Source: Anaerolineales bacterium (GTDB lineage Bacteria > Chloroflexota > Anaerolineae > Anaerolineales > UBA11579). Taken from it: DNA of 64,000 nucleotides. The stretch spans positions 1 through 64,000 of the forward strand of contig JAHCII010000002.1 in the NCBI GenBank assembly GCA_026129305.1, in the 5' to 3' direction. Of this stretch, positions 60,549-64,000 are shown in pieces; the first letter of the stretch is position 1, and each line of letters starts with the position of its first letter. The position numbers were made by a program, and so were the translations under genes. A model generated the notes under the pieces. It did no database searches. It saw nothing but the letters and a program-made list of their open reading frames with translations, and was not told where the DNA came from.

Positions 60549-61247
60549 ATGAACAAAATGTCTCAGCCAAACCATATCAAAGTCGCCATTCTGGATGACC
60601 ACATCAGCGCTTTGGACAGTTACCAAATGCGTCTGACGGCCAACAAGAACATCGAGGTGGTGGCCACCGCGCACTTTGGTGATGAACTCGAAGGCATGCT
60701 CGACCAGCATGCTGTGGATGTGCTGATCCTGGACGTGGGGGTACCCAATTCTGCGGAAAATCGAAACCCCTATCCCATTCTGCACATTATTCCGCGCCTG
60801 CGCGAGAAGTTTCCCCAGATCCACATCCTGATCATCTCGATGTACGAACAGCCCACCTTCGTCCGCTTTTTGCTGGAAGCAGGCGCCACTGGCTACATTG
60901 TCAAAGAAGATCAGGAAGCCATCATCCGTCTGCCGGAAATTGTGACCTCGGTCAGCACCGGGGGCATCTATCTCTCCGGCCGCTTGCACAATTTGCTGGC
61001 GCAAACTTCCAACGAGGAAAGCCGCATGCTCAGCCGGCGCCAGCAGGAAGCCATTTCGTTGATCACCGCTTTTCCGGAGCTGGACACGGATCATCTGGCC
61101 AAGCGTATGAGCGTGGCGCCTTCCACCGCGCGCAACCTACTGTCCCGGGCCTACAAACGCCTGGGAGTGCACAGCCGGGGTGCGGCGGCTCACCGTGCCC
61201 GTGAATTGGGCTTGCAGATCATCTTCCCCGAAGAGCCTGGCAAATAG
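60549..61247 (+). CDS. ComA-like response regulator (receiver plus LuxR-type HTH)
   Basis: 232 residues. The receiver domain has the acidic pair D16/D17 (VAILDDHISALD), phospho-acceptor D62 in DVLILDVGVP, Ser97 in ILIISMYEQ and Lys119 in GYIVKED. The C-terminal HTH reads LSRRQQEAISLITAF and MSVAPSTARNLLSRAYKRLG, as in LuxR/NarL-type regulators. It should be phosphorylated by the ComP-like receptor and act on DNA. GAGGTGGG precedes the ATG. It ends 2 nt before the convergent ComQ-like gene. As ComA in Bacillus it is the output of the cassette (inference from context). Confidence 0.88.
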   Translation: MNKMSQPNHIKVAILDDHISALDSYQMRLTANKNIEVVATAHFGDELEGMLDQHAVDVLILDVGVPNSAENRNPYPILHIIPRLREKFPQIHILIISMYEQPTFVRFLLEAGATGYIVKEDQEAIIRLPEIVTSVSTGGIYLSGRLHNLLAQTSNEESRMLSRRQQEAISLITAFPELDTDHLAKRMSVAPSTARNLLSRAYKRLGVHSRGAAAHRARELGLQIIFPEEPGK

Positions 61248-61249
61248 CC

Positions 61250-62170
61250 CTATCGGGCCACGCGCGCCATCAGACGCTGCACCGGAGCCAGCATCTGGTC
61301 CAGCAGTTCGCCAAGCGGCGAGCTGTTTTGCAGCTGCATCTGCGACAAGTGCTCGCGGGCCTGCTTTTCTCGCAAGATCAGTTCATTAATACAGTAGCTG
61401 ATCGCGCCGCTGCTGACCAGGATGCTTTGCGCTTCTTGCAACGCCGCGGGGTCGTTGACCTGGCTGCGTAGTTCTTTGAAGCGAGCCTGCCGGCCGTGGG
61501 GCGCCAGTTCGGCATACAAGATCGGTAAGGGTGAACGTCCCTGTAGCCAATCCACGTTGGCTGGGGCGCTAAGGCAGTCGTTCAAGTCGTCGTGGATTTG
61601 CAGCATCTCCCCGAACAAAGCGCCAAATTCATAGCACTGGCTTGCGCTTTCCCCGCCCGCTCCTGCGAACAGCGCGCCTAAATACAGTCCGGTGGCGAAA
61701 TATGGCGAACTCTTGGCGTGGGCCACCGCCCAGTAGTCCTCTTCACTGGCTGGGTTCTGCACGTCCAGCTCCTGCCCGTAGGCGGTGTCCATTTGCATTC
61801 GCACAATGGCGGCCATGGCCGGCTGGCTGAGCGCAGGTTGGGCGTTCTGTAGCACGTCAGCTGCCATGCCCAGCAGGGCTGTGCTCAGGTTGGCGGCGCG
61901 CCCCACGCCGATCTGGTGCTGCAGGCCGCGCGGGTCCTCGTCGAGAAGGTCGTCGACCAGCAAGATGCCCATATGTGCGCAGGTCATGGCCGCCAGGGCC
62001 GGCGTCAGCAGGCTCTCATCGCCGTCAGTGGCCTGGCAGGCCCGCAGCGGGAAATCCCAGGCCACTGGCTTGTGCGTCAGGGCCCTTTGGCAGGCTTGTT
62101 GCAGTTCCGGCCAGCGCAAGGTTTGTGGATGCTCCAACAGCAGGTGGACAGCTTTTAAATACCTTTCCAT
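61250..62170 (-). CDS. ComQ-like polyprenyl synthase-family protein (peptide prenyltransferase candidate)
   Basis: An all-helical protein of 306 residues and trans-prenyltransferase fold. The first Asp-rich motif is DDLLD at 73-77 and the second DDLND at 194-198; GQELD (132-136) and K153 in HAKSSPYF fit the diphosphate site. The usual Arg-Arg-Gly after the first motif is absent (DEDPRGLQHQIGVG), and the IPP-side residues near the N-terminus are weak. The same deviation is expected when the acceptor is a peptide, as for ComQ, which prenylates a Trp of ComX. The gene is 67 nt after the ComX-like gene, with GAGGAGG before its ATG. An ordinary polyprenyl diphosphate synthase is the alternative. 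Confidence 0.82.
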   Translation of the reverse strand: MERYLKAVHLLLEHPQTLRWPELQQACQRALTHKPVAWDFPLRACQATDGDESLLTPALAAMTCAHMGILLVDDLLDEDPRGLQHQIGVGRAANLSTALLGMAADVLQNAQPALSQPAMAAIVRMQMDTAYGQELDVQNPASEEDYWAVAHAKSSPYFATGLYLGALFAGAGGESASQCYEFGALFGEMLQIHDDLNDCLSAPANVDWLQGRSPLPILYAELAPHGRQARFKELRSQVNDPAALQEAQSILVSSGAISYCINELILREKQAREHLSQMQLQNSSPLGELLDQMLAPVQRLMARVAR

Positions 62171-62198
62171 TGTTCCTCCTCTATTACAATGGCACAGA

Positions 62199-62226
62199 CA
62201 GAGGGCGGCTGTGCAGCCGCCCTCTG
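62199..62226 (-). promoter_or_regulatory. GC-rich hairpin between comX-like and comQ-like genes
   Basis: CAGAGGGCGGCTG (62199-62211) and CAGCCGCCCTCTG (62214-62226) pair perfectly around TG. It starts 11 nt after the comX stop on the minus strand. No T tract follows, so it is more likely an mRNA-stabilising or attenuating stem than a full terminator. It would favour more precursor peptide than enzyme. Confidence 0.65.
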
Positions 62227-62237
62227 TGCAGGTCGGT

Positions 62238-62384
62238 TTACTCCGTCCAGGCGTCCCAGGCCAGTTCTGAACGAACGGCCAGGATCTCGCTGAGCGAGGC
62301 CTCGGTGATGTTGAAAAGTTCGGTCACCAAAGCGGGTTGCTCATCTTGGGCGAAGAGGGAAGCGTGAAATGCTTGAATGCTCAT
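62238..62384 (-). CDS. ComX-like pheromone precursor, 48 residues, Trp near C-terminus
   Basis: A small gene. The product begins MSIQAFHASLFAQDEQPALV, continues TELFNITEASLSEILAVRSE and ends LAWDAWTE. AAAGGAG lies 7 nt before the ATG. An in-frame ATG 24 nt upstream (MNKKRRFL...) has no SD. ComX precursors are short, have an acidic helical leader and a single prenylated Trp three or four residues from the C-terminus (QWGD in strain 168). Here W46 is third from the end and W43 sixth. There is no signal peptide or Cys. It is cotranscribed with the ComQ-like gene, divergent from the ComP-like gene. The identification rests on size, Trp position and neighbours. Confidence 0.78.
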   Translation of the reverse strand: MSIQAFHASLFAQDEQPALVTELFNITEASLSEILAVRSELAWDAWTE

Positions 62385-62456
62385 GAGGAATCTCCTTTTT
62401 TTGTTCATAGTTAGGAAATAGGGTCTACGTATGATCAGCGGTTGGTGTCTGCAGCA

Positions 62457-62470
62457 ATCACCTCCTTTCT
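62457..62470. other. 14-nt copy of the 16S rRNA 3' end / super Shine-Dalgarno
   Basis: The plus strand reads ATCACCTCCTTTCT, the 3' end of Bacillus-type 16S rRNA (anti-Shine-Dalgarno), 7 nt before the ComP-like ATG. The minus strand, in the leader of the comX transcript, is therefore a maximal SD (AGAAAGGAGGTGAT). It has no ATG or GTG at normal spacing, only a TTG or CTG that would give a peptide of about 10 residues. Confidence 0.5.
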
Positions 62471-62477
62471 AAAAACC

Positions 62478-64000
62478 ATGATGCACAGCAGCGTTAATCC
62501 CCGGGGGCGCCGTTTAGGTGAGATCTTCTTGCCCGCCTTCGTTCTCTGGGTGCTGTTTGTCTTTACCTACGCGCGCTTTTACAGCATTCCCTACTTGGGG
62601 TTTGAATATCGCGGTGTGAGTGGAGAGATCACCGAGGTCCACCTGCCTGAAATGGGCCTGGAGGTGGGCGACGAGATCATGGCGGTCAATGGCCGGGCCT
62701 GGTCACAGGCTACCTCGCGCGTGGGCCTGCACTTGCTGGCGCTGAGCCAGCCTGGTGATGTCCTGCTCTTGGACGTGCGCCAGGGGGAGAGCGTTTCCTC
62801 CGTGACCTGGCAGGTGGCTGGGGCAACGCCCAGTGAGTTCTCCTCCCGCTTTTTCAATACCTGGTGGGTCAGCTATGTCTTTTGGTTGGCGGGCACTGTG
62901 TCGCTGGTCTTGCTGCGCCCCAAGGACAAGCGCTGGGCCTTGCTGGTGGGGTTCAATTACGTTACTGCGATTTGGTTCATGGCCGGCACGCTTTCACGCT
63001 TTGGGGTCCTGCTTTCGCCTCTGATCCTGCGCATGGGCATATGGCTCAGTCTGCCCATTTATTTGCATCTTCATTGGGTCCTCCCGCGCGAGATCCGCAG
63101 ATTGCCCAGGTTTGTTTGGTTTGCCCTGTATGGCCTTTCGATCCTGGCTGCATTGGGGTACCTCTTCGGCTATACCCCCTATGATTCCTACCTTTCGGCT
63201 TTTCTGGTGGCAGTCCTGGGTAGCGTAGCTTTGCTCACCTATCGCTTCTTCTTGTGCCAGGCAGAGCGTAAGGAAATTGGCCTGATCCTCTTCGGCGCCG
63301 GGGTGGCTTTTTTGCCCGCCGCGGTGGTGGCGCTGACCTCTCTGCAGCCGGACGCATCCGCCACTTTGCCGGGCTATGTCATCTCGATGATGGCCCTGCC
63401 CGGCGCCTATCTGTATATCGCCATGCGCCGCCGGTTGGGCGACTTGGAAGTGCGCGCCAACCGGGCCATCTCGCTGTACCTGTTCCTGGTGCTGATGGTG
63501 ACCTTCTCTCTGCTGCTGTTGCCCATCACGACCTTGTTGTTCCCCGGGTTGGCTGGCGCGGGCGGTGTGGTGGTGGTCACGGCCGTGGTGGCCTCTTTGT
63601 TCAGCATCCTCGGCTTCTCAGGGTTTCAGAAATTTGTCGAACGTAAGATCCTGGGCATTCCGGAAACTCCGCAGCGCCTGCTGGAAGAATTTGCCGGCCG
63701 GCTTTCCACCAGTTTTTCTCACTCCAATCTAGCCGCATTGCTGACTACAGAAGTCTTGCCCGCCTTGTTCATCCGCCAATCCGCTTTACTCAATTTCGAC
63801 GTACGCAGCACGGGCCGAGTGGTCTATTTGCAGGGCGTGAAAGCTGACAGCTTGCCAAACCAGGCTCAGCAAAAAGTGCTTGCCAGCTTGCCGGCCAATG
63901 CGCTGATCGAGCAGGGGTATTTCGGCCGGGCGCAGCAGTGGGCCAAGGTCAGCCTGCCTCTTGTGGTGGCCGGGGAGCCGCGCGGCTTATGGCTGCTGGG
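62478..64000 (+). CDS. ComP-like polytopic receptor with PDZ-like loop, kinase part beyond window
   Basis: 507 residues are visible and the frame runs off the end. Helix 1 (FLPAFVLWVLFVFTYARFY) is followed by an extracytoplasmic loop of about 90 residues with a PDZ-like core (VSGEITEVHLPEMGLEVGDE, IMAVNGRAWSQA). About nine more helices follow to residue 385. A cytoplasmic region then begins QKFVERKILGIPETPQRLLE and resembles a GAF-like linker. The B. subtilis ComP sensor also has many helices and large outer loops before its HisKA_3-HATPase part. The kinase domain is not seen here. No SD precedes ATG 62478; ATG 62481 and TTG 62442 are alternatives. Confidence 0.78.
   Translation, partial: MMHSSVNPRGRRLGEIFLPAFVLWVLFVFTYARFYSIPYLGFEYRGVSGEITEVHLPEMGLEVGDEIMAVNGRAWSQATSRVGLHLLALSQPGDVLLLDVRQGESVSSVTWQVAGATPSEFSSRFFNTWWVSYVFWLAGTVSLVLLRPKDKRWALLVGFNYVTAIWFMAGTLSRFGVLLSPLILRMGIWLSLPIYLHLHWVLPREIRRLPRFVWFALYGLSILAALGYLFGYTPYDSYLSAFLVAVLGSVALLTYRFFLCQAERKEIGLILFGAGVAFLPAAVVALTSLQPDASATLPGYVISMMALPGAYLYIAMRRRLGDLEVRANRAISLYLFLVLMVTFSLLLLPITTLLFPGLAGAGGVVVVTAVVASLFSILGFSGFQKFVERKILGIPETPQRLLEEFAGRLSTSFSHSNLAALLTTEVLPALFIRQSALLNFDVRSTGRVVYLQGVKADSLPNQAQQKVLASLPANALIEQGYFGRAQQWAKVSLPLVVAGEPRGLWLL

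Follow-up and report, generated by a model that had tools for sequence, protein, structure and literature searches.

A ComQXPA-like gene cassette in Chloroflexota and its proposed role in prenyl-peptide signalling

A 64,000-nucleotide stretch of DNA from an Anaerolineales bacterium (Chloroflexota), here referred to as the window, carries at its end four linked genes that most probably form a prenyl-peptide cell-cell signalling system working like ComQXPA of Bacillus. The linkage is conserved among relatives, as is a W-x-x-W motif in the small peptide; the enzyme belongs to a distinct clade with altered IPP-site residues, and the receptor shares sensor homology with ComP. Prenylation and export of the peptide, its pairing with the receptor, a quorum response and target genes would complete such a system, and we infer them from these features.

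The only systematic census, from 2014, recorded ComQXPA in no phylum except Firmicutes (PMC4008528), in line with the preliminary description of this DNA, which placed the system in Firmicutes, and a 2022 survey credited the Chloroflexi with a ComP-ComA-type pair only (PMC8895600). Full-text literature searches, which for the most part do not reach subscription papers, turned up no description of comQ together with comX in Chloroflexota. The suggestion that prenyl-peptide signalling would be new in this lineage is in keeping with this for the gene pair, from which we infer the signalling.

Results

The cassette and its distribution

As had been described, four adjacent comA-, comQ-, comX- and comP-like ORFs lie at the end of the window, in the arrangement comA> <comQ <comX comP> (Table 1). 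The contig (G000:C12, 164,785 bp) continues beyond the window, and the complete receptor ORF reaches its stop at 64736 (L002:7443-9737). The LuxR/GerE score of the comA-like regulator is to be read against a Pfam cut-off of 23.5. No exporter or protease genes are linked to the cassette.

Table 1. Features of the cassette and their positions in the window
Feature	Position	Strand	Evidence
comA-like NarL/LuxR-type response regulator, 232 aa	60549..61247	+	receiver domain (PF00072) at 47 bits; GerE under its cut-off at 18.5 bits
comQ-like trans-prenyl-synthase-family enzyme, 306 aa; proposed peptide Trp prenyltransferase	61250..62170	-	PF00348, own clade
comX-like precursor of 48 aa, ending in WDAWTE	62241..62384	-	RBS AAAAGGAG, recurrence, pN/pS
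conserved element AATCACCTCCTTTCT, a short way 5' of comP	62456..62470	+	copy of the 16S rRNA 3' tail (anti-SD)
comP-like sensor histidine kinase, running past the window to contig position 64736	62478..64000	+	HATPase_c, H-box, ComP-homologous sensor

A ComQ-like search of 151 relatives gave a distinct upper class of matches with E < 1e-30, and the canonical prenyl synthase of the same genomes matched at about 1e-9 to 1e-16. Within the genus, comQ is present in 10 of the 11 members and a separate canonical synthase in every one. Scanning one genome per species yielded 61 named comQ-like loci. The loci were found in MAGs of Anaerolineales, Anaerolineaceae, Ardenticatenaceae and Caldilineaceae and in three records labelled Acidobacteriota, two of them on short contigs (L109 and L111) and one on a 1.2-Mb contig (L114). 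Across the phylum the cassette is rare (7 of 400 in an even draw).

Altogether 72 loci were compared, a count that takes in a few duplicate records. The arrangement of the window (type A) is shared by 43 of them, so that the expected four-gene block does occur in related genomes, and 25 are colinear, comX>comQ>comP>. In nearly all type-A relatives comA adjoins comQ. Dozens of genomes have the block, which is therefore not a chance assembly of neighbours. One colinear locus, L106, adds comA and thereby has a Bacillus-like order, comX-comQ-comP-comA. The gene order had been taken to exclude a simple recent transfer from Bacillus; the order in the window does differ from that of Bacillus, but order alone is not decisive because of L106.

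The precursor peptide

The best start of the window comX is the ATG at 62384, which gives the peptide MSIQAFHASLFAQDEQPALVTELFNITEASLSEILAVRSELAWDAWTE; this 48-aa form is favoured over a 56-aa one from an in-frame start upstream, at 62408, because AAAAGGAG precedes the ATG at 62384. Its third residue from the end is Trp, and another Trp stands three residues before. We searched directly upstream of comQ for a co-oriented ATG/RBS ORF of 35–95 aa whose final 20 residues include W-x-x-W, which was found at 57 of the 69 comQ loci having enough upstream sequence, compared with 15 of 3243 random positions (0.46%). In L099 and L109 the peptide is located farther upstream of comQ, and several further loci have single-Trp homologues. 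The small ORF is thus present in almost every relative that retains comQ; its absence there had been named as a test of the idea. Within the genus, pN/pS is about 0.1 in most pairs and near 0.4–0.5 in two; the comX-like ORF is a real gene and is under purifying selection there.

The WxxW motif is present in 57 of 61 distinct peptides. Their leaders read MQxFYxxL in type A and MTIEEFNxLLxSE in type B, and the leader and the W's are kept while the remainder varies, largely the pattern that had been predicted for the C-terminal Trp. In vitro, ComQ needs a W within 1–4 residues of the C-terminus (PMC5331326). Many of the comX-like peptides have such a W; in roughly one out of three, the second W is at least 7 residues away from the C-terminus.

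A proposed ComX profile search went against the preliminary description. The window peptide had no match to PF05952, a model that scores an authentic Anoxybacillus ComX at 72 bits, and hhalign profile comparison of the comX-like peptides with Bacillota ComX gave a probability of 0.3%. Type-A and type-B peptides matched each other at 95.9%, and neither group matched Bacillota ComX. Across 301 genomes of the phylum PF05952 also found nothing, a result uninformative on its own because 14 control genomes were equally silent. No NHLP leader was matched in the window peptide. Upstream of the WxxW peptide in one HD-GYP-type locus (L025:2935-3153, genome G041) lies an extra peptide of 72 aa, likewise with a Trp close to the C-terminal end, possibly a second precursor.

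The enzyme

The window ComQ-like enzyme matches PF00348 (E 2.4e-17) with the motifs VDDLLDEDPRG and QIHDDLND. Both DDxxD motifs are therefore there as described, but the second sets the enzyme apart from Bacillus ComQ, where this motif has been lost (PMC5331326, PMC10853753). In the Chloroflexota enzymes FARM (DDxxDxD) and SARM (DDxxD) are conserved, and D194, D195 and D198 of SARM are invariant across 44 sequences. Since SARM is intact, the enzyme may retain residual diphosphate-synthase activity. In PalQ, the corresponding Asp residues are kept and are dispensable for activity (PMC10853753). Trp is the target of all characterised trans-IDS-like peptide prenyltransferases (PMC13290415).

We built a tree from the ComQ-like proteins, the canonical synthases that their genomes also encode and, from annotated plasmids, authentic Bacillota ComQ; the ComQ of B. 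subtilis 168, a sequence entered by hand and used as a query for plasmid relatives, was one extra row beside the database ComQs in the alignments, the profile comparison and the tree and AU test. The 30 ComQ-like proteins formed a clade with 100/100 support, separate from the canonical synthases, with which they might have grouped had the preliminary description been wrong. The free tree separates Chloroflexota from Bacillota ComQ, a joint clade is not rejected (AU p 0.58), and the branches are very long; the two ComQ groups may share descent or may have been recruited in parallel. Canonical enzymes have a GKR-x-R motif and a GD..GK loop after the second Asp motif, whereas both ComQ groups lack the two; judged from the alignment, the ComQ-like enzyme is altered at IPP-site residues. 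Its AF2 model (pLDDT 94.9) has the prenyl-synthase fold, the nearest solved structures are GGPP and octaprenyl synthases (TM about 0.8), and the ComQ-like profile scores 286 to the canonical group versus 152 to Bacillota ComQ.

A ComQ search of phages found nothing, and in plasmids tblastn gave a single distant match, an Acaryochloris gene that has neither ComX nor ComP annotated alongside. Bacillus ComQ and the ComQ-like protein of the window each hit this gene, a distantly ComQ-like polyprenyl synthetase on the conjugative cyanobacterial plasmid pREC3 of Acaryochloris marina (L063:5833-6780).

The receptor and its outputs

From its likely ATG the complete window receptor has 753 aa. A kinase beyond residue 507 had been expected, and a kinase domain is indeed present once the contig is extended: HATPase_c scores 42 bits (cut-off 26.4), and the receptor also carries a GAF-like region and an H-box, ARELHDDTLGQ. 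The HisKA_3 domain that had been anticipated gave a weak partial match of 14.3 bits, under its cut-off. The sensor half without the kinase matched authentic Anoxybacillus and Priestia ComP with a score of 79 (E 6e-10), compared with 17 for the reversed sequence and 15–18 for unrelated membrane proteins; at the level of sequence, then, it is homologous to Bacillota ComP. The AF2 model has TM1, a PDZ-like domain weakly resembling the DegS/DegQ PDZ, and a TM bundle. TM1-PDZ is the fastest-diverging part within the genus in most comparisons, which would fit a ligand-reading module.

Colinear loci join this sensor to other output modules: HisKA kinases, receiver-bearing hybrid kinases or HD-GYP domains. 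The HD-GYP fusions occur in four loci (L047, L089, L096 and L055), with HD_5 at E 1e-32 to 1e-39 and HHEKWDG[ST]GYP present, and sit downstream of comX-comQ; no separate response regulator was recognised near them.

The comX-comP intergenic element

Many type-A loci contain TATAAT-N5-CACCTCCTTT on the comP strand, at a distance of 15–50 nt or more before the ATG of comP, in which CACCTCCTTT is a copy of the anti-SD tail of 16S rRNA. The element is found in most type-A loci and also 5' of comP in some loci that have the receptor only. A one-mismatch pattern search of eight genomes, which recovered just one comP copy, did not find it elsewhere. No palindromic ComA box was found in the comX-comP intergenic region.

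Receptor-only lineages

A search with the sensor profile recovered, in several lineages, pairs of comA and comP that lack an intervening comQ or comX. In most cases a single contig spans the gap from comA to comP, so that in these the missing genes are not an assembly effect. The gap of L163 (L163:5269-5748) still holds the start of comX (MFTMQEFYKRLF...) joined to broken pieces of comQ, with comA and comP intact alongside, and its sister, genome G098 (L127), has a truncated comQ only and no recognised comX. On a quick tree these receptors are scattered, which takes a minimum of 10 changes, at least 5 of them forced by well-supported branches. The simplest reading is repeated loss of the signal with reception retained. 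For some of these lineages comQ-comX may instead have been gained into an older comA-comP pair.

Discussion

Comparison with known systems

The Chloroflexota cassette and ComQXPA of Bacillota have in common four adjacent genes, a PF00348 enzyme with FARM that has lost GKR-x-R and the GD/GK loop, a short precursor with a C-terminal Trp, a sensor kinase of TM-PDZ-TM-bundle design that is homologous across the sensor half, and a NarL-type regulator. They differ in that the Chloroflexota peptide is outside PF05952 and has WxxW, with two Trp, and in that SARM is intact here but degenerate in Bacillota ComQ. ComQXPA runs Q-X-P-A on one strand, unlike the window, although Firmicutes loci with inverted comX are also on record (Dogsa 2014). 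HisKA, hybrid and HD-GYP outputs in one branch, the receptor-only lineages, and occurrence in Chloroflexota with a few Acidobacteriota records are further differences. The evidence thus partly supports the preliminary description: the cassette is probably ComQXPA-like in mechanism and is not a demonstrated ComQXPA member; we do not file it as such because tests for PF05952 and for a degenerate SARM revealed neither.

PalQ/PalX/PalP of Paenibacillus alvei, a RiPP system with a C-terminal Trp prenyltransferase, is similar in having a trans-IDS-like enzyme, a peptide with Trp near the C-terminus and a kinase. The NHLP leader and the terminal Trp of PalX are both missing from the window peptide. 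A second class of loci in the same taxonomic order (L061, L175, L177 and L179, also L176 and L178) has PalQ-like enzymes beside NHLP/Os17-like precursors with Trp at the end, and a PAS/GAF kinase whose sensor is distantly ComP-like.

Proposed mechanism and alternatives

In ComQXPA of Bacillota, Trp is geranylated or farnesylated at C3 and signalling depends on cell density. In the mechanism proposed here, the 48-residue precursor would be made and its N-terminal leader (MQxFY...L) recognised by the ComQ-like enzyme, which would take a prenyl group (C10–C20) from a prenyl diphosphate and attach it to a Trp of the C-terminal WxxW, or perhaps to both. The prenylated peptide would then be cut and exported by other functions of the cell; ComX export is unsolved in Bacillus as well (PMC4008528). 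Outside, the PDZ and TM-bundle sensor of ComP would sense it, and the ComP kinase would phosphorylate the ComA-like regulator.

The enzyme could also be an ordinary short-chain prenyl diphosphate synthase, with a receptor for free isoprenoid or another cue and a peptide that is an unrelated regulator. Canonical GGPP and octaprenyl synthases do share its fold and both Asp-rich motifs, and the intact SARM, the nearest structures and the higher profile score to the canonical group all point that way. However, each genus member has its separate canonical synthase, the ComQ-like proteins form a clade of their own in which the IPP-binding GKR-x-R and GK loop are lost, and genes of that clade almost invariably have a WxxW peptide and a ComP-like receptor linked to them; we regard an ordinary synthase as very improbable. 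A product of PalQ type, a prenylated lipopeptide with an antimicrobial or other function whose production the kinase just regulates, with no population signal, is also improbable. PalX-PalQ clusters do include a histidine kinase (PMC10853753), and the same taxonomic order has PalQ-like clusters whose peptides are of NHLP type, but the window enzyme falls outside the PalQ-like group in the tree, its peptide differs from PalX at both ends, ABC exporter and immunity genes are not linked, and the receptor-only lineages fit the sensing of an external peptide.

Implications

For the phylum as a whole we lean, with some reserve, towards a wider picture of prenyl-peptide signalling: quorum sensing of this kind would be old or repeatedly transferred in Chloroflexota and would use WxxW pheromones of its own. 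Its sensor would have been re-plugged onto classical and hybrid kinases and onto HD-GYP c-di-GMP phosphodiesterases, the latter giving a one-protein pheromone-to-second-messenger receptor, and receptor-only eavesdroppers would have arisen repeatedly by keeping comA-comP after the loss of comQ-comX. If this is true, post-translational prenylation of Trp as a cell-cell language would be far more widespread and extend beyond the phylum of Bacillus, to uncultured Chloroflexota known from metagenomes, and a prenyl-peptide signal could drive c-di-GMP turnover directly. For peptide lipidation the cassettes would then offer natural enzyme-peptide pairs by the dozen, and with the receptor-only lineages, comparative genomics could be used to test for signal cheating and eavesdropping.
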